Origin: Janthinobacterium sp.
GTDB lineage: Bacteria > Pseudomonadota > Gammaproteobacteria > Burkholderiales > Chitinibacteraceae
Length of the DNA stretch: 33,592 nt
Assembly (NCBI GenBank): GCA_025360045.1
Contig: JANYCY010000004.1
Location: forward strand, 1-33,592
Direction: 5' to 3'
Under the pieces are notes generated by a model. That model was not told the DNA's origin. It ran no database searches and was given only the letters and a program-made list of their open reading frames with translations. Of the stretch, positions 12,302 to 33,592 are shown piece after piece. A program made the position numbers and the translations under genes. Position 1 is the first letter of the stretch. Each line of letters begins with the position of its first letter.

Positions 12302-12538
12302 GCATGGGGCTTAAATCACCCCTTGAAACACGCCGGAGCGAGGAACAAGCGGGGCGGGGTTTCGCTTGGGAGCGAAGGATCCAGCCAGTCCCGCCTGCCG
12401 CCGACTCGATTGGACCGCAGAAGGGGCCTTCGTGTTTTGCTGTTGTCGCTTGGCTTCGTTTCTTGGCGAAGCAAGAAAGGAAGGCCCACGCGGTGGCTAC
12501 CGCTCCAAAATCAACGTGCCGAAGGCACTAAAAAAATA
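12302..12538 (+). repeat. R1 structured repeat, copy 2
   Basis: Complete R1 copy of about 237 bp, from GCATGGGGCTTAAATCACC to the A run after GTGCCGAAGGCAC. H1 here is CTTCGTTTCTTG (12454-12465) with CAAGAAAGGAAG (12472-12483), loop GCGAAG, with one mismatch. H2 is GCGGT/ACCGC, a compensated change from GCGGG/CCCGC in copy 1. It ends directly at the AGGA ribosome site of the next gene, so it forms the distal part of that gene's leader. Open frames across it are fortuitous. Confidence 0.88.
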
Positions 12539-18477: not shown

Positions 18478-18492
18478 GCTTCATAGGGTGCA

Positions 18493-18620
18493 CAAAACCC
18501 AAACCTTAAACCACGGAGGAAAGGAGAACACGGAGGGTCACGGAGAAAAACATAACATTAAGGTTTTCTCCGTGTAGCTCTGTGTCCTCCGTGTTCTCTG
18601 TGGTTCAAGATTTGGGTTTT
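18493..18620. repeat. R2 repeat pair forming a large palindrome
   Basis: The left arm begins AAAACCCAAACC and holds CCACGGAGG, AACACGGAG and TCACGGAG units (18493-18550). The right arm (18564-18620) is its near complement, ending GATTTGGGTTTT. The loop is about 13 nt. It starts 16 nt after the fixJ-type gene and ends 36 nt before yaaA. As RNA it would form a stem of nearly 60 bp, likely a bidirectional barrier or stabiliser. Single R2 copies occur at 19438, 25014, 27157, 29843 and 33271. Confidence 0.88.
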
Positions 18621-18656
18621 ATTCTGTTAACAACCATCCCGCGCTCAAAGTCCGCC

Positions 18657-19486: not shown

Positions 19487-19560
19487 CATTTTTACAAAAA
19501 TAATTTCCTTGGCATTTTAAAACATGTTCAAAACCAAGAGCCTGTAATTTATTAGCGCTC

Positions 19561-19737
19561 ACGGCATGGGGCTTCAAATCCCCCCTTGAAACACGCTGCA
19601 GTGAGGAACAAGCAGGGAGGAGATTGCTTAGGGGCGAGGAACGAGCCAGTCCAGCGGGACGCCCGCACCTACATCAACGTGCCGAAGGCACTAAAAAAGC
19701 ATTACTTTTGACTCTGCTTGAAGCCTAAAGCACACAC
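19561..19737 (+). repeat. R1 structured repeat, copy 3 (internal deletion)
   Basis: Both ends of R1 are present: the left GGCATGGGGCTTCAAATC and the right GTGCCGAAGGCAC A run plus the GCACACACC tail. About 110 bp in the middle are missing, joining CGAGCCAGTCC to AGCGGGACGCCCGC. The long H1 hairpin is lost; H2 (GCGGG/CCCGC with a 3-nt loop) and H3 remain. Confidence 0.85.
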
Positions 19738-24346: not shown

Positions 24347-24958
24347 ATGAATGAAATTTTTGCCGTTGCCCTGATCACTATTCTTGCCGTCATCAGTCCC
24401 GGCGCTGATTTTGCAATGGTCACCCGCAATAGCTATCTCTATGGGCGAAAAGCCGGTTTATTGGCCGCGCTGGGGATTGCCTTGGGTGTGCAAATCCATG
24501 TGATGTACACCATGCTGGGCGTGGGACTCATCATTTCACAATCGCCTGCACTGTTTACAGCCATCAAAATAGCGGGCGCTATTTACTTGATTTATATCGG
24601 CTACACCACGTTCACCAGCAAAAGCAGACTCAATATCGATTTAAGCGCAGATGCGGGTTTAAGCCCTTTTGCTGCCTTCAAAAATGGCTTTTTAACCAAT
24701 GTGCTTAACCCGAAAACCACACTGTTTGTGGTGAGCACCTACACCCAAGTCGTTAACCCAAGCACCCCGCTAGCGCAGCAAATTGGCTATGGCTTATTTA
24801 TGTCTTTGGCGCACGGCGTATGGTTTTCACTCGTGGCGCTGTTTTTCTCTCACCAAGCATTAAGATCCGCCATGATTAAGGGGCAAAGCCTGCTCAATAA
24901 AATCATCGGCAGCGCCCTATTTGGCCTAGGCGTATCGCTCGCCTTTGCGCCGCATTAA
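24347..24958 (+). CDS. LysE/RhtB-family amino-acid exporter
   Basis: Protein of 203 aa with about six hydrophobic helices. The N-terminal segment ISPGADFAMVTRNSYLYGRKAGLLAALGIALG matches the conserved first half of the RhtB/LysE family, and FLTNVLNPKTTLFV matches the central LNPK motif. It would export an amino acid or derivative across the inner membrane. An AGGA ribosome site precedes the ATG by about 8 nt. The divergent LysR gene is the probable regulator. The stop is followed by R2 at 25014. Confidence 0.93.
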   Translation: MNEIFAVALITILAVISPGADFAMVTRNSYLYGRKAGLLAALGIALGVQIHVMYTMLGVGLIISQSPALFTAIKIAGAIYLIYIGYTTFTSKSRLNIDLSADAGLSPFAAFKNGFLTNVLNPKTTLFVVSTYTQVVNPSTPLAQQIGYGLFMSLAHGVWFSLVALFFSHQALRSAMIKGQSLLNKIIGSALFGLGVSLAFAPH

Positions 24959-25013
24959 AATCGATCCGCTAAAGAACACAAAACTTTAGGCAATGAACTG
25001 ATATTACTCAGCC

Positions 25014-25070
25014 AAACCCAAATCTTGAACCACGGAGGACACAGAGAACACGGAGTTTCACGGAGAAAAA
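25014..25070 (+). repeat. R2 repeat after the LysE-type gene
   Basis: AACCCAAATCTTGAACC is followed by CACGGAGGACACAGAGAAC, ACGGAGTTTCACGGAG and an A run. The CACRGAG core repeats at about 8-10 bp spacing. It starts 56 nt after the exporter stop codon and is followed after 74 bp by R1 copy 4. Confidence 0.88.
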
Positions 25071-25144
25071 CCTTTTGAATTGAGCCATTTGCATTGAGTT
25101 TTTGAGCATTTTCAAATCTAGCAATCTAAATTTTTATCACAACT

Positions 25145-25388
25145 CATGGCACGGAGCTTAAACCTCCCCTTGAAACACGCCGGAGCGAGGAACAAGCGGG
25201 GCGGGGTTTCGGCCAGGGAGCGAGGCAGCGAGCCAATCCCGCCTGCCGCCGACTCGATTGTCCGCAGTGCAGGGGCCTTCGTGTTTTTGGTGTTGTCGCT
25301 TTGGTTCTTTTCTTGGCGAAGCAAGAAAAGAACGCCCCCGCGGTGGCTACCGCTCCAAAACACCGTGCCGAAGGCACTAAAAAGAAGA
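25145..25388 (+). repeat. R1 structured repeat, copy 4
   Basis: Complete copy of about 242 bp. H1 is a perfect 12-bp stem, GTTCTTTTCTTG (25304-25315) with CAAGAAAAGAAC (25322-25333), loop GCGAAG. Three stem positions differ from copies 1 and 5 on both sides, preserving pairing. H2 is GCGGT/ACCGC. An upstream stem can pair GCGG+GGCGGG (25196-25205) with CCCGCC (25238-25243) and CCGC (25246-25249). The copy lies between the 3' ends of convergent genes. Confidence 0.9.
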
Positions 25389-25409
25389 TCGCTGTGTAAC
25401 ATTGACCAA

Positions 25410-25955
25410 TTAAAACGAACTCGGCGTATTGGCGCTAATCACTTCAGCAGCGCCAGCGCCGATATTGCGGAAACGGTGCGGCAAATTACTGGGGAAGTAA
25501 TAGCCATCCCCCGCTTGCAATAGATGCACTTGCCCATCTATGGTCAGCTCCATATGGCCGCTGACCAACACCCCACATTCCTGCCCCTCGTGCTGCAACA
25601 TCTCGCTGCCGGTATCGGCCCCCGGCTGATATTGCTCGCGCAGCAAGCCAATTTTCCTCTCCGTAACCCCTGAGCCAACCAAATGCATTTGCACAGACGC
25701 ATTGCCTAAATTGGGCTGCGTGCTTGCGGGAAAAATATAGCTGGGCACGGCCATTTCTTGCTCAAAAGTAAAGAATTCCGCAAGGGACATGGGAAACCCT
25801 TCCAGCAATTTTTTTAATGAGCTAATCGACGGGCTAACCCGATTTTGCTCGATCAAAGACACCGTGGCATTGGTCATCCCCGCCCGCTTGGCTAATTCGC
25901 GCTGAGATAAAGCAAACCGCCCTCGCACTACCTTAAGCCTTGCCCCTACGTCCAT
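25410..25955 (-). CDS. puuR: XRE-cupin transcriptional regulator, PuuR-like
   Basis: Protein of 181 aa. An N-terminal XRE helix-turn-helix (about 5-60: LSQRELAKRAGMTNATVSLIEQNRVSPSISSL) is joined to a C-terminal cupin (about 105-178: EGQECGVLVSGHMELTIDGQ then GDGYYFPSNLPHRFRN). This is the build and size of PuuR (185 aa in E. coli), the repressor of putrescine use. The context supports this: puuD-, puuA-, spuC- and gabT-like genes follow, and a PuuR-box-like sequence lies at 26122-26136 in its upstream region. The symbol is assigned by similarity and context. Cupin ligands in this family are small amines. Confidence 0.85.
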   Translation of the reverse strand: MDVGARLKVVRGRFALSQRELAKRAGMTNATVSLIEQNRVSPSISSLKKLLEGFPMSLAEFFTFEQEMAVPSYIFPASTQPNLGNASVQMHLVGSGVTERKIGLLREQYQPGADTGSEMLQHEGQECGVLVSGHMELTIDGQVHLLQAGDGYYFPSNLPHRFRNIGAGAAEVISANTPSSF

Positions 25956-27133: not shown

Positions 27134-27156
27134 CGGGTGACTGGCAATGAAATAGT

Positions 27157-27214
27157 AAAACCCAAATCTTGAACCACAGAGGGCACAGAGAACACGGAGT
27201 TTCACGGAGAAAAC
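27157..27214 (+). repeat. R2 repeat after puuD
   Basis: AAACCCAAATCTTGAACC then CACAGAGGGCACAGAG, AACACGGAG and TTTCACGGAG, starting 24 nt after the puuD stop codon. It is followed by a 76-bp spacer and R1 copy 5. Confidence 0.88.
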
Positions 27215-27290
27215 CAAGTCTTAAATTAAGCTTTTTTAGGTTTTAAGTATTTTAAAACTCAGCAATTAGAATTCGCATCGCAGCTAGTGG

Positions 27291-27532
27291 CATAGGGCTT
27301 GAAAATCCCCTTGAAGCACGCCGAAGCGAGGAACAAGCGGGGCGGGGTTTCGGCGAGGATGTTTGAGCGAGCGCAGCGAGTGAGTCCCGCAGCCGCCGAC
27401 TCGATTGTCCGCAGTGAGGGGTTTCGTGCTTCGTGGGGTCGCCTTCTTTGCTTACTTTCTTGGCGAAGCAAGAAAGTGAGGCCCACGCGGGGGACTCCCG
27501 CACCTAAACACCGTGCTGAAGGCACTAAAAAT
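27291..27532 (+). repeat. R1 structured repeat, copy 5
   Basis: Complete copy of about 241 bp. H1 (27451-27480) has the same sequence as copy 1, CTTACTTTCTTG/CAAGAAAGTGAG. H2 is GCGGG/CCCGC and H3 is GTGCTGAAGGCAC, where a T-G wobble replaces one C-G pair. It differs from copies 1, 2 and 4 in a central segment (TGTTTGAGCGAGCGCAGCG). It lies between convergent genes. Confidence 0.88.
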
Positions 27533-27602
27533 AACGGTTTTAGAGTTTTCTTGATGCAACACCCAACACAACAAAGCCACCACCATGCCTCAATCCACAC
27601 AC

Positions 27603-28507: not shown

Positions 28508-29836
28508 ATGAGCGTCATCAGCGACTGGCTGCGAGAACGTCGAATCACTGAAGTTGAATGCGTTACGCCCGATTTCACTGGCATTGCCCGCGGCAAAATC
28601 GTGCCCAAAGAAAAATTCAGCGAAGACGAAGGCATGCGCCTGCCCGTTACCGTACTGGTGCAAACCGTGACCGGTGAATACGCCGAACACATCACCCCCA
28701 TCACCGATCCCGATATGCTGTTGATTCCAGACCCCAACACCATACGCATCATTCCATGGGCCAAAGACCCCGTTGCGCAAGTGATTCACGATTGCTTTCA
28801 TTTTGACGGCACGCCGGTTGAGCTGTCCCCTCGCTATGTGCTGCGCCGAGTGCTGAAGCTCTATGAAGACCGGGGCTGGAAGCCGGTCGTTGCGCCTGAA
28901 ATGGAGTTTTATCTGGTTGATATCAACCGTGATCCGGATCTGCCCTTACAACCGCCCGTGGGACGCACCGGCCGCCCGGAAACCGGCCGCAAAGCCTATT
29001 CCGTCGATGCAGTAAATGAATATGACGACCTGTTCGAAGACGTTTACGACTATTGCGATGCACAAGGTCTGCAGATAGATACGCTGATCCACGAAATTGG
29101 CGCCTGCCAGATGGAAATCAATTTTTTGCACGGCGATGCACTGGAGCTGGCCGATCAGGTGTTTCTGTTTAAACGCACGGTGCGGGAAGCGGCCATCCGC
29201 CACAATATGTACGCCACCTTTATGGCCAAGCCAATGGAAAACGAGCCAGGCTCGGCCATGCACATTCATATGAGCGTAGTGGATGAAGTCAGCGGCCAGA
29301 ATGTGTTTTCGAATGTGGACGGCACGCCCAGCGAGGTGTTTTATCAATCGGTAGCGGGCATGCAAAAATACTTCCCGCAAGTGATCGCGCTATTCGCCCC
29401 CTTTGTAAACAGCTACCGCCGCCTGACCCGCTACTACGCCGCGCCCATCAATGTGCAATGGGGTTTTGATAACCGCACCTGCGGCATACGCGTGCCGCAC
29501 TCCGACCCCGTGGCCCGCCGCATAGAAAACCGCCTACCCGGCGTCGATTGCAACCCCTACCTCGCCCTCGCCGCCACACTGGCCTGCGCCTATTTAGGCA
29601 TAGAAGAGCAGCTTACCCCCAGCGAGCCCCTCACCGGCGACGCCTACACCCTGCCCTTCGCCTTCCCCAGAGGTCTGGATGCCGCCACGCAAATCCTAAG
29701 CGACTGCAAACCCATAGCCGCCGTCTTGGGTGAGCCATTTATCAAAGCCTATTGCGCAGTAAAAGAAGCCGAATACGTGGAATACGCAAGAGTCATCAGC
29801 CCATGGGAAAGAAAGCATTTGCTGCTGCATGTTTGA
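28508..29836 (+). CDS. puuA: Gamma-glutamylpolyamine synthetase (glutamine synthetase family, PuuA-like)
   Basis: Protein of 442 aa. The ATG at 28508 has a GGAG ribosome site at proper spacing. The glutamine-synthetase catalytic fold is shown by PEMEFYLVDINRD, EIGACQMEINFLHGDALELADQ, MAKPMENEPGSAMHIHMS, NSYRRLTRYYAAP and NRTCGIRVP. The N-terminus VECVTPDFTGIARGKIVPK is typical of the PuuA/GlnA3-like branch rather than of true GlnA. It joins glutamate to putrescine or another polyamine using ATP. Its stop is followed 7 nt later by R2. The gene lies between a divergent amidotransferase and the SpuC-like transaminase. Confidence 0.92.
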   Translation: MSVISDWLRERRITEVECVTPDFTGIARGKIVPKEKFSEDEGMRLPVTVLVQTVTGEYAEHITPITDPDMLLIPDPNTIRIIPWAKDPVAQVIHDCFHFDGTPVELSPRYVLRRVLKLYEDRGWKPVVAPEMEFYLVDINRDPDLPLQPPVGRTGRPETGRKAYSVDAVNEYDDLFEDVYDYCDAQGLQIDTLIHEIGACQMEINFLHGDALELADQVFLFKRTVREAAIRHNMYATFMAKPMENEPGSAMHIHMSVVDEVSGQNVFSNVDGTPSEVFYQSVAGMQKYFPQVIALFAPFVNSYRRLTRYYAAPINVQWGFDNRTCGIRVPHSDPVARRIENRLPGVDCNPYLALAATLACAYLGIEEQLTPSEPLTGDAYTLPFAFPRGLDAATQILSDCKPIAAVLGEPFIKAYCAVKEAEYVEYARVISPWERKHLLLHV

Positions 29837-29842
29837 TGTTGC

Positions 29843-29900
29843 ACAACCAAAATCTTGAACCACGGAGGGCACAGAGAACACGGAGTTTCACGGAGGAAAC
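29843..29900 (+). repeat. R2 repeat after puuA
   Basis: ACAACCAAAATCTTGAACC followed by CACGGAGGGCACAGAG, AACACGGAG and TTTCACGGAG, beginning 7 nt after the puuA stop. The 74-bp spacer to R1 (29901-29974) closely matches that at 25071-25144, for example TCTAAATTTTTATC in both. Confidence 0.88.
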
Positions 29901-29974
29901 CCTTTTTGAGTTAAGCCATTTTTTTGAGTTTTTGAGTATTTTCAAGCTCAACAATCTAAATTTTTATCGCTATT

Positions 29975-30249
29975 CATGGCACAGGGCTTAAATCACCCCT
30001 TGAAGCACGCCGAAGCGAGGAATAAGCGGATCGGGGTTTCGGAAAAGGGGTAGCGAGGCAGCGAGCGAGCAGCCTTTTTCGCCGAGCCGATTATCCGCAG
30101 TGAGGGGCCTTCGTGTTTCGTGGGGCGGCCTTCTTTGCTTCCTTTCTTGGCCGTTCAAGAAAGGGAGTCCCCCGCGGGGATGCCGCACCTAAATTAACGT
30201 GCCGAAGGCACTAAAAAAGATCTTTTTGACTTTGCTTAACGCACGCACA
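29975..30249 (+). repeat. R1 structured repeat, copy 6 (second subtype)
   Basis: Belongs with copy 7 to a subtype whose centre reads GGAAAAGGGGTAGCGAGG instead of the GCCAGGGAGCGAGG form. H1 is CTTCCTTTCTTG (30138-30149) with CAAGAAAGGGAG (30156-30167); the loop changed to GCCGTT but the stem is kept. An outer stem GCGGAT (30026-30031)/ATCCGC (30093-30098) plus CGG/CCG also forms. H2 is GCGG/CCGC. The tail resembles that of copy 1. Confidence 0.9.
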
Positions 30250-30281
30250 TGGGCACAGACCCCGCAACAAGGAGGCACTCG

Positions 30282-31691
30282 ATGAATCCGAATCCCATCA
30301 GCCAAGGCCACTCCAGCCCTAGCCGCAGCACCGCCGAATACCAAGCGCTGGATGCTGCCCACCATATCCATCCCTTCTCGGATACCGCCGCGCTGAATGC
30401 CCATGGCTCACGCGTGATTACCCATGCCGAGGGGATTTATTTATATGATTCTGACGGGAATAAAATTTTTGACGCCATGAGCGGACTTTGGTGCGTCAAT
30501 ATCGGCTATGGCAGGCAGGAGCTGGCCGAAGCGGCTTACCAGCAAATGCTGCAACTGCCCTTCTACAACACCTTTTTTAAAACCACCCACCCGCCGGTGA
30601 TCGAGCTATCCAGCCTCTTGGCGCAAGTCGCCCCCGAAGGCTTTAATCATGTTTTTTATACCAATTCTGGCTCGGAAGGGAACGACACCATTATTCGCAT
30701 GGTGCGCCACTACTGGGCCACACTCGGCCAGCCGCAAAAGAAAACCATCATCGCCCGCGAAAACGGCTATCACGGCTCCACCATCGGCGGGGCCAGCTTG
30801 GGCGGCATGCACTATATGCACGAGCAAGGCGATCTACCCATCCCCGGCATTGCCCATATCGAACAACCCTACTGGTATGCCAATGGCGGCGAGCTTAGCC
30901 CCAAGGAATACGGCCTGAAAGCCGCAAGGGCGCTAGAGCAAAAGATTCTGGAGCTGGGCGTTGAAAACGTCGCCGCCTTTATTGGCGAGCCGGTGCAAGG
31001 CGCGGGTGGGATTATTATTCCGCCCTCCACCTACTGGCCAGAAATCCAGCGCATTTGCGATCATTACGGCATCTTACTCATCGCCGACGAAGTGATCTGC
31101 GGCTTTGGCCGCACCGGCTCATGGTTTGGCAGCCAGCATTACGGCATACGCCCGCATCTAATGACCATCGCCAAAGGCTTAAGCTCCGGCTATATCCCAA
31201 TTGGCGGCGTGTTAGTCCACGACACCGTGGCCAAAGTACTGATAGAGGGCGGCGATTTTAACCACGGCTTTACCTATTCCGGCCACCCCGTCGCCTGCGC
31301 TGTGGCAGCCACCAATATCCGCATCCTGCTGAACGAGCGCATTATCGAGCGCATGAAGACCGACGTCGCCCCCTACGCCGCCCAGCTCTGGCACGACGCT
31401 TTCGATGATCACCCGCTGGTAGACGATGTACGCAGCCTAGGCTTTTTCTTTGCACTTACCCTCGTGGAAGACAAAGCCAGCCGCAAGCGTTTCGAGCACG
31501 GCAGCAGCATGGCCCTGCGCTGCCGAGATATCTGCCTGAAAAACCAGCTAGTCATGCGCGCCACCGGCGACAGCATGATCGCCGCCCCACCGCTGGTCAT
31601 GACCCGTGCACAGGCGGAAGAATTTGTCAGGCTGGCAAAGCAGTGCATTGATGAATACGCGAGGGAGCTGGGGATAACAAAAGGTCTGTAG
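30282..31691 (+). CDS. spuC: Putrescine--pyruvate transaminase-like class III aminotransferase
   Basis: Protein of 469 aa. A perfect GGAGG site lies 6 nt before the ATG at 30282. It closely resembles Pseudomonas SpuC as recalled: HIHPFSDTAALNAHGSRVIT, AMSGLWCVNIGYGR, NGYHGSTIGG, PIPGIAHIEQPYWY and GFTYSGHPVA. PLP is bound by Lys298 in AKGLSSGYIP, with Asp269 in LIADEVICGFGRTG. It would convert putrescine to 4-aminobutanal. It follows puuA and an R2-R1 module, and its stop codon lies inside the left arm of an inverted repeat (31685-31699). Other diamines may also be substrates. Confidence 0.92.
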   Translation: MNPNPISQGHSSPSRSTAEYQALDAAHHIHPFSDTAALNAHGSRVITHAEGIYLYDSDGNKIFDAMSGLWCVNIGYGRQELAEAAYQQMLQLPFYNTFFKTTHPPVIELSSLLAQVAPEGFNHVFYTNSGSEGNDTIIRMVRHYWATLGQPQKKTIIARENGYHGSTIGGASLGGMHYMHEQGDLPIPGIAHIEQPYWYANGGELSPKEYGLKAARALEQKILELGVENVAAFIGEPVQGAGGIIIPPSTYWPEIQRICDHYGILLIADEVICGFGRTGSWFGSQHYGIRPHLMTIAKGLSSGYIPIGGVLVHDTVAKVLIEGGDFNHGFTYSGHPVACAVAATNIRILLNERIIERMKTDVAPYAAQLWHDAFDDHPLVDDVRSLGFFFALTLVEDKASRKRFEHGSSMALRCRDICLKNQLVMRATGDSMIAAPPLVMTRAQAEEFVRLAKQCIDEYARELGITKGL

Positions 31692-33270: not shown

Positions 33271-33370
33271 TCTGTGGACACAGAGATCCATGAGAACACA
33301 GAGCACACCGAGAAAACCCAAATCTTTAACCACGGAGGCCACAGAGAACACGGAGTTTCACGGAGGAAAC
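33271..33370 (+). repeat. Extended R2 repeat after gabT
   Basis: About 100 bp, starting 6 nt after the gabT stop. A first R2-like block (TCTGTGGACACAGAG, GAGAACACAGAGCACACCGAG) is followed by a full copy (AACCCAAATCTTTAACC, CACGGAGGCCACAGAG, TTTCACGGAGG). The spacer to R1 is shorter here, about 53 bp. Confidence 0.85.
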
Positions 33371-33423
33371 AGTTTGACTTTTGAGTAATTTCAACCACAG
33401 CAAAGATGGATTTATATTGTGAT

Positions 33424-33592
33424 TCCCCGCACTGGGCTTAAATCCCCCTTGAAGCACGCCGAAGCGAGGAATAAGCGGCTCGGGGTTTCGGAAAAGGGGT
33501 AGCGAGGCAGCGAGCGAGCAGCCTTTTTCGCCGAGCCGATTATCCGCAGTGAGGGGCCTTCGTGCTGGTCGGGGCGGCCTTCTTTGCTTACT
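33424..33592 (+). repeat. R1 structured repeat, copy 7 (right end outside window)
   Basis: Same subtype as copy 6, sharing GGAAAAGGGGTAGCGAGG and GCCGAGCCGATTATCCGC. Its left stem reads GCGGCTCGG, against GCGGATCGG in copy 6; it can pair with CCGAGCCG downstream. The window ends just at the start of hairpin H1. Confidence 0.85.

Follow-up and report, generated by a model that had tools for sequence, protein, structure and literature searches.

Our results favor, with some confidence, the view that the repeat R1 is one lineage of a large, non-autonomous, MITE-like family in which the part maintained by selection is a triplex-pseudoknot fold, probably of RNA. The sequence statistics show the pairings, the mirror rule, the strand that folds, the breadth of the family, the lack of a common neighboring gene and the presence or absence of the element at orthologous sites.

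R1 copies in the window and in its genome

The window, i.e. the whole stretch of 33,592 nucleotides that was analyzed, is one entire contig of a 4.02 Mb genome; the closest named relatives of one of its genes (30249-31691) are mostly from Iodobacter. A blastn search with positions 25145-25388 recovered the seven R1 copies counted in the preliminary description, all on the + strand, two of them cut by the contig ends and one of them a fragment.

25145-25388, + strand: reference copy of R1, core element of 244 bases (blastn query)
1-179, + strand: R1 copy, cut by the contig start (blastn)
12302-12534, + strand: R1 copy (blastn)
19560-19698, + strand: degenerate R1 fragment (blastn, 19560-19663; model match, 19605-19698, 25 bits)
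27288-27534, + strand: R1 copy (blastn)
29975-30217, + strand: R1 copy (blastn)
33429-33592, + strand: R1 copy, cut by the contig end at 33592 (blastn match, 33429-33564)
25014-25386, + strand: longer 'type II' repeat unit around R1 with a 5' flank ACCACGGAGG..ACACGGAG, which recurs among the same-genus matches listed

The genome was found to contain at least 41 R1 matches by blastn (E-values of 7e-34 to 1.7e-124, a repeat far beyond chance) and at least 85 with a covariance model, and R1 was present in all eight other same-genus genomes searched. R1 is a non-coding dispersed element lying between genes.

ORFs of at least 80 codons cross R1 in many loci, and nearly all members of two ORF clusters (46 and 32 ORFs) overlap it; therefore, gene callers may report hypothetical proteins at R1. 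A second dispersed repeat, AACCCAAATCTTGAACCACGGAGG..ACACGGAGTTTCACGGAG, was observed in the window at 18484-18621, 25004-25071, 27148-27215, 29834-29901 and 33304-33371; it lies ~75 bases ahead of R1 in several copies and elsewhere occurs without R1 or inverted. The flanks of loci L003, L007, L018 and L020 carry GTAGGGCGGGTGAAACCCGC palindromes resembling GTAG-type REPs, and within these palindromes lie inverted CATATGCGCTAACC-like ends; such inverted ends enclose only part of the same-genus copies.

Covariation in hairpins H1, H2 and H3

The stems and loops previously quoted for window copies 1, 4, 5 and 6 match the sequence. In the reference copy the hairpins are placed as follows.

25304-25315, + strand: H1 5' arm, GTTCTTTTCTTG (sequence; same-genus alignment)
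25316-25321, + strand: H1 loop GCGAAG, in which GCGA (25316-25319) is the 3' strand of a pseudoknot, pk1 (permutation test)
25322-25333, + strand: H1 3' arm, purine-rich, CAAGAAAAGAAC (sequence; same-genus alignment)
25340-25353, + strand: H2 hairpin GCGGT/ACCGC (two-sided change of UA to GC at one pair, 12 of 39 copies)
25365-25377, + strand: H3 hairpin GTGCC GAA GGCAC, then TAAAAAG (nearly invariant)

The same-genus alignment A1 held 40 rows, the window fragments at 19560 and 33429 having fallen below the E-value filter and two cut copies having been removed, and alignment A2 held 39 rows, with L013, whose H1 is rearranged, left out. Compensatory changes in H1 were confirmed, but the 12-bp stem described as intact is not so, as columns 40 and 61 are unpaired in 28 of 39 copies, mostly with G opposite G. 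The compensatory change claimed for H2 was also borne out, at one of its five pairs. GTGCC/GGCAC of H3 is indeed kept; its 39 copies contain zero two-sided changes, and H3 is therefore uninformative on covariation.

Over H1, H2 and H3 in the 39 same-genus copies, 95.6% of cells were paired, compared to 91.8% after shuffling, cells with two-sided changes numbered 25, compared to 6.4, and the covariation score was 0.100, compared to 0.038; none of 500 shuffles was as high in any of the three measures. The same copies showed no excess of pairs with a two-sided change (4 vs 2.4, with 41 of 500 shuffles reaching the value) or of further pair types (8 vs 8.2, 399 of 500 shuffles). A wider family alignment of 122 distinct rows, which was fitted to the structure and includes a few antisense rows, gave 444 two-sided cells compared to 122.5 by shuffling, and the pseudoknot and mirror tests described below are independent of this fitted alignment. 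The nulls throughout are shuffles and permutations, which ignore kinship. Locus L135 was excluded from the later analyses of relative loci, as were six further AT-rich rows from alignment A5; A5 aligned badly, and neither it nor alignment A3 contributes to the results. The preliminary description had held that single-strand folding is selected and had proposed covariation statistics on a larger alignment; the excess over shuffles, within the genus and in the wider family, supports that claim.

The sequence GCCTTCG (window 25275-25281, beside the 3' strand of stem P1, see below) can pair with CGAAGGC of H3 (25369-25375). An RNAalifold structure of the first model, in which this GCCTTCG/CGAAGGC pairing replaces H3, was dropped for the broad model and may be a real alternative.

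Pairing of the H1 loop with an upstream strand

Covariation indicates pairing between the H1 loop and a strand upstream of it, which forms an H-type pseudoknot, pk1. Its 3' strand is the start of the H1 loop plus the base preceding the loop, and the partner strand lies 5' of H1. In the window, pk1 was located at three copies.

25296-25299, + strand: pk1 5' strand TCGC, partner of GCGA at the start of the H1 loop (permutation test, contingency)
27439-27480, + strand: fuller pseudoknot of copy 27288, with pk1 TCGCC at 27439-27443 and tract L1, UUCUUU, at 27444-27449 (mirror test)
27451-27462, 27463-27468 and 27469-27480, + strand: H1 5' arm, loop and purine arm of copy 27288 (sequence)
30126-30167, + strand: covarying pseudoknot of copy 29975, with pk1 CGGCC pairing with loop GCCGTT plus the preceding G, and L1, UUCUUU, at 30131-30136 (permutation, contingency)

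Among 179 model matches, a clean stem with a six-base loop was missing in 8, and 153 copies, four of them antisense, were left after de-duplication. Parsing that accepted loops of 5 to 10 bases gave a six-base H1 loop in 48 of 48 relatives. The longest Watson-Crick run that the H1 loop can form within a 22-base stretch upstream averaged 4.84 bp over the 153 distinct copies, compared to 3.98 bp with the loops permuted (maximum 4.17, with none of 2000 permutations reaching the observed mean). Runs of at least 4 bp were found in 142 of the 153 copies, a count in which a few runs, e.g. TTCG/CGAA, may fall outside the pk1 position. When one copy was taken per loop type (37 types), the mean was 4.62 compared to 3.58, and no permutation was as high. 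Pair types include TCGCC/GGCGA, CGGCC/GGCCG, GTGGCC/GGCCAC, GTGCCC/GGGCAC, CGTGC/GCACG, CCGC/GCGG and CTGC/GCAG. The type of the pk1 strand agreed with the type of the loop in 38 of 39 same-genus copies, with TCGC accompanying GCGAAG in 21, CGGCC accompanying GCCGTT or GCCGCT in 10, and TGGC accompanying GCCACA in 7; the exception, L017, mixes strand and loop types.

A mirror tract and a probable triple helix

Between the pk1 strand and H1 sits a pyrimidine tract, L1, which is the mirror, not the complement, of the purine arm of H1: arm AAGAAAA is accompanied by UUCUUUU, AAAAGAA by UUUUCUU and AAGGAAA by UUCCUUU. The mirror and second-pseudoknot tests were carried out on 149 copies, antisense rows having been removed, and a purine run was present in the H1 3' arm of 145 of them. 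L1 read better in the parallel (Hoogsteen) direction in 78 copies and in the antiparallel direction in 2, and 65 were ties, of which 50 have purine arms that read identically in both directions. The L1 match was 6.31, compared to 5.71 with L1 permuted among copies (maximum of 5.83 in 1000 permutations), and 5.90 compared to 4.64 when each of the 10 arm types was represented by a single copy.

Loop 1 of an H-type pseudoknot follows the deep groove of its stem 2 and runs parallel to the 3' strand of that stem, and a U.A-U/C.G-C triple helix is present in the pseudoknot of telomerase RNA. Because the mirror relation and the parallel geometry of L1 are what such a triple helix requires, L1 probably forms a triple helix with the H1 purine arm. 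The UUCUUU tract is absent in 10 of 39 same-genus copies, copy 25145 among them, and the triplex would thus be dispensable for some copies.

Two loci, L146 (1073-1178, - strand) and L214 (1890-2013, + strand), have a G-rich H1 5' arm and an L1 that is also G-rich (UUGGGGG, UUUGGGG); these two cases, seen by eye, might fit a purine-motif triplex. In a Pasteurella multocida locus (L271), L1 UUUCUUUU accompanies the purine arm AAAGAAAA.

A second pseudoknot, the folding strand and domain A

Pairing across the family, evidence weaker than that for pk1, indicates that the H2 loop makes a second pseudoknot, pk2. The strand that follows H1 pairs with the H2 loop as TAGC/GCTA, GTGCC/GGCAC, GGTG/CACC, GTCC/GGAC, TCGCC/GGCGA and others, and pairings of at least 4 bp were found in 45 of 112 unique combinations compared to 11.5 expected (none of 3000 permutations). 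A run of 3 bp was missing in 39 of 147 copies with H2, partly because the automatic finder took another hairpin for H2.

25334-25336, + strand: pk2 5' strand GCC, which can pair with GGC at 25345-25347 of the H2 loop (3 bp here; family-wide permutation)
25173-25179, + strand: P1 5' strand AAACACG, closing domain A (pairs with CGTGTTT, 25280-25286)
25280-25286, + strand: P1 3' strand CGTGTTT (sequence)

The pairs of H1 comprised 1812 Watson-Crick pairs, 92 G.T, 3 A.C and 46 other mismatches, as counted by a stem finder that accepted G.T as a pair and so favored G.T over A.C somewhat. From the numbers of G.T and A.C, the strand that folds is the + strand, as written.

Ahead of pk1, stem P1 closes a variable domain A. 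Its excess is modest, with at least 8 bp of contiguous Watson-Crick pairing in 37 of 109 other-genera copies compared to 19 expected. Some copies can extend P1 with CCCC..GGGG, copy 27288 has GAAGCACG/CGTGCTTC, and in copy 25145 P1 has no folding-energy support. The folding energy of domain A, taken over a fixed 148-base stretch, gave a z of -2 or lower in 7 of 16 copies tested and above -2 in the other 9, with values of -7.4 in L164, -7.2 in L197 and -5.3 in L160; domain A of window copy 25145 folds no better than shuffles (z of +0.86).

Spread of the element beyond the genus

The preliminary description had suggested a search of related genomes, and R1 was found in the genus, in the bacterial family and in the wider phylum. 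This spread, like the two pseudoknots, the mirror tract and stem P1, is an addition to the preliminary description. Among 43 genomes of the bacterial family, 41 had matches to model R1, which represents the H1-H3 part in 117 positions, and these covered 11 of 11 genera; across the phylum, the model matched 19 of 398 genomes. A broader model, R2, consisting of H1 and H2 only, was made from 53 such matches in 39 fetched loci. Model R2 matched 93 of 398 genomes of the phylum, about a quarter (44 of 213 genera), 113 of 300 genomes of the order (59 of 135 genera) and 70 of 274 genomes of the class (62 of 222 genera), in counts that include the genome of the window, from family, order, class and phylum samples that overlap, and with the rough E-values of short-calibrated covariance models. 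H3 and the A-rich end are a feature of this bacterial family, and many relatives lack both.

Named records matched by R2 were from Variovorax paradoxus, Caballeronia sp. NK8, Chitinibacter bivalviorum, Pasteurella multocida and Ilyobacter polytropus. A plasmid of the last of these (Fusobacteriota, NC_014633.1) contains six family matches, of which L269, at 223987-224091, is AT-rich, and in P. multocida locus L271 (NZ_CP020346.1, 244419-244917) a head-to-head pair lies at a DUF484 gene and dapF. With the L161 sequence as query, blastn gave no match in 50,697 phage records or in 5,426 E. coli genomes; against plasmids, the same query matched one record, and a second, with a looser limit, gave short matches in 12 records.

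Genomic context, turnover and paired units

No protein recurred beside most copies among 813 ORFs of 86 loci (43 clusters), and the largest ORF cluster outside R1 held 7 ORFs from diverse loci. The orientation of neighboring genes, taken as ORFs of at least 110 codons rather than annotations, was determined for 109 distinct same-genus copies. R1 was rare between divergent genes (5, compared to 23 between convergent genes, p = 0.0009), and in tandem gene pairs it lay in sense in 43 cases and in antisense in 31 (p = 0.20). An initial set of 50 same-genus copies had given 19 to 9 for co-transcription with the upstream gene, a candidate that was dropped when the 109 copies gave 43 to 31.

Sites gain and lose the element. 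At the site of copy 25145, R1 was absent in six of the seven relatives with both flanks read (G001 and G003-G007) and present in G008, and at the site of copy 27288 it was present in four of six such relatives and absent in G001 and G004. At the site of copy 29975, four relatives (L031-L034) carry R1 with a pseudoknot type that differs from that of the window, and in Pseudogulbenkiania just ~80 bases separate the two aligned gene parts.

Head-to-head pairs of copies occur in many relatives; in the same-genus loci read, pairs are uncommon. On the Caballeronia plasmid pNK81, 18 of 20 matches form nine head-to-head pairs, each spanning 575 to 615 bp between its outer edges. All nine units align over the interval bounded by a stretch that flanks each H2 on its outer side and is shared, in inverted form, by the two ends. 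Their outermost bases vary, agreeing between both ends in few units; local end matches of 9-47 nt extend clearly to the tip in L289 and nearly so in L287, and in no other unit. A known transposon end had been named as a finding that would speak against a new element: the fold does lie just inside the ends of the Caballeronia units, but no named transposon was matched. Among same-genus copies, end patterns were matched on both sides in 13 of 109 and on neither in 37 of 109; with several kinds of flank besides, a single unit with fixed ends is therefore not established. No clear target-site duplication was seen, by eye, at the sites compared or at the pNK81 units, and the GGTGAAACC repeated beside some same-genus copies falls in a REP-like palindrome. 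Genome G448 contains, at five loci, composites of about 700 bp that resemble the pNK81 units. In G384 (L252-L254), the element was also seen in tandem with a period of ~254 bp.

Possible roles of the fold

We infer triplex formation, RNA as the molecule and service of the fold in movement, as follows. Selection would keep a single-strand fold of the sense strand (here +), which would consist, from 5' to 3', of P1 around variable domain A, pk1, L1 with H1, and pk2 via the H2 loop, with H3 and the A-rich end as its 3' part in this bacterial family. The major groove of H1 would accommodate L1, which would form U.A-U and C.G-C triples with the purine arm. The fold would form in RNA, or briefly in single-stranded DNA, and might act as a handle for machinery supplied in trans that copies, protects or integrates the element. 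RNA is preferred over single-stranded DNA because of the type of fold, a choice that sequence alone does not decide. More tentatively, the family could represent an unnamed class of mobile structured RNA, with a telomerase-like triplex pseudoknot and a second pseudoknot, that is copied back into genomes and is present in about a quarter of the sampled Pseudomonadota genomes and in a Fusobacteriota replicon; we regard this as possible rather than probable.

An element in 93 of 398 genomes of the phylum that has no Rfam model would be a large gap in the bacterial RNA map. The mirror rule clearly predicts a triple helix, and the family, whose pseudoknots change in sequence but not in shape, constitutes a large natural data set.

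A different explanation is that R1 is a host RNA device, transcribed with its neighbor, whose pseudoknot protects or terminates the mRNA 3' end. Triplex pseudoknots can stabilize RNA ends, and such a device would agree with the intergenic location of R1, with its preference for convergent over divergent genes (23 vs 5), and with the position of all six window copies that have an upstream ORF in view, each of which follows a + strand ORF. We nevertheless consider it unlikely, given the lack of a significant sense bias in tandem pairs (43 vs 31), the gain and loss of R1 at sites, and the lack of any gene that recurs beside most copies. A signal in double-stranded DNA, i.e. the mirror repeat as H-DNA or palindromes that bind protein, is the least probable explanation, and highly improbable in our view: polypyrimidine mirror repeats are the classic sequence of H-DNA, but here the mirror is linked with a hairpin and two pseudoknots that covary as only a single strand would require, and the wobble pairs are strand-specific.

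Two further explanations name a mobilizing enzyme, and for these we compared 30 hand-picked element-rich genomes (at least 6 matches of 12 scored) with 30 controls without a match, a comparison that ignores kinship and would overlook divergent enzymes. The first is a single-stranded DNA element mobilized by a Y1 (HUH) transposase, like REPs/REPINs or relatives of IS200/IS605, which would account for the hairpins, for the REPIN-like head-to-head pairs and for the REP-like GTAGGGCGGG.. palindromes that adjoin part of the same-genus copies. However, Y1_Tnp was found in 21 of 30 element-rich genomes and in 19 of 30 genomes without the element (p = 0.78), so that 9 of the 30 element-rich genomes had no match. 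Furthermore, a replichore bias is expected of elements that move as lagging-strand single-stranded DNA, and none was observed (33 leading and 27 lagging among 60 copies in the matches listed for five genomes, with the origin assumed at the contig start); we rate this explanation slightly below the host device. Still more doubtful is a retro-copied RNA, a bacterial analogue of SINEs, in which the fold and the A-rich 3' end would recruit a reverse transcriptase. The fold near the 3' end, the TAAAAA end in this bacterial family, and the lack of an ORF of its own and of a clear target-site duplication are consistent with retro-copying, but many relatives lack H3 and the A-rich end, and RVT_1 was matched in 12 of 30 element-rich genomes compared to 8 of 30 without the element (p = 0.41), leaving 18 of 30 element-rich genomes without a match. 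As neither Y1 nor RVT_1 differed between the two sets of genomes, neither looks required. Neither match was found in 7 of the 30 element-rich genomes, which raises the question of what moves non-coding repeats.

Relation to known systems

Dispersed non-coding repeats in inverted pairs are a kind already known. No known counterpart was found for a repeat that, by its sequence, would combine a triplex-type pseudoknot with a second pseudoknot at such breadth, and the open-licence papers searched yielded no description of R1. Like the R1 family, REPINs and BIMEs, i.e. REP pairs mobilized by RAYT, are short, non-coding, high-copy and intergenic, often in inverted pairs. REPs are reported to be 20-40 bp long, so that R1 is several times longer, and R1 has a mirror tract and pseudoknots as well. 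For Iodobacter ciconiae, REP counts have been tabulated (PMC12306157). A further difference from REPINs is the absence of a detected Y1 transposase in the 9 of 30 element-rich genomes noted above, where divergent enzymes could be missed. Bacterial MITEs, of which Correia elements are an example, are non-autonomous and short, as is the R1 family, with its Caballeronia units of ~0.6 kb and inverted halves. In contrast to MITEs, no autonomous partner was found among the ORFs beside the fetched copies, there was no clear target-site duplication, the conserved part of R1 is a strand-specific fold, and the tips of the units agree only partly. In Pseudomonas fluorescens, R0 and R2 are bacterial MITEs, and the intergenic repeats R178, of 101 bp with an internal inverted repeat, and R200, of 320 bp, have also been described (PMC2718517). 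R178 and R200 are like R1 in size and habit and could be members of the family. By analogy, the pseudoknot of telomerase RNA also resembles R1: it is H-type, and the pyrimidines of its loop 1 read in parallel with the purine strand of stem 2. No common ancestry is claimed, and the R1 fold is predicted from sequence.

The earlier statement that no known family has this set of hairpins agrees with Rfam 15, which gave 0 matches in the window at gathering scores; over 24950-25450, relaxing the limit to E<=1 still gave none. The IscB/TnpB omega-RNA (HEARO) had no Rfam match in the window or in 20 related loci, and no neighboring protein recurred at most copies. Three Rfam matches were obtained in the 20 related loci, a tRNA, ncS54 and TwoAYGGAY, and only the last overlaps an element. 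The ncS54 match, near L163 and ~140 nt from an R1 copy, was judged unrelated; ncS54 had six matches in three of five genomes searched and was absent from element-rich G448 and from the genome of the window. In one of the 20 loci, L154, domain A (1620-1725, - strand) matches TwoAYGGAY (RF01731) with 44.2 bits at a cut-off of 43. This match lies 5' of the pk1-H1-pk2 part of the R1 relative, and it is possible that some TwoAYGGAY RNAs belong to elements of this kind.
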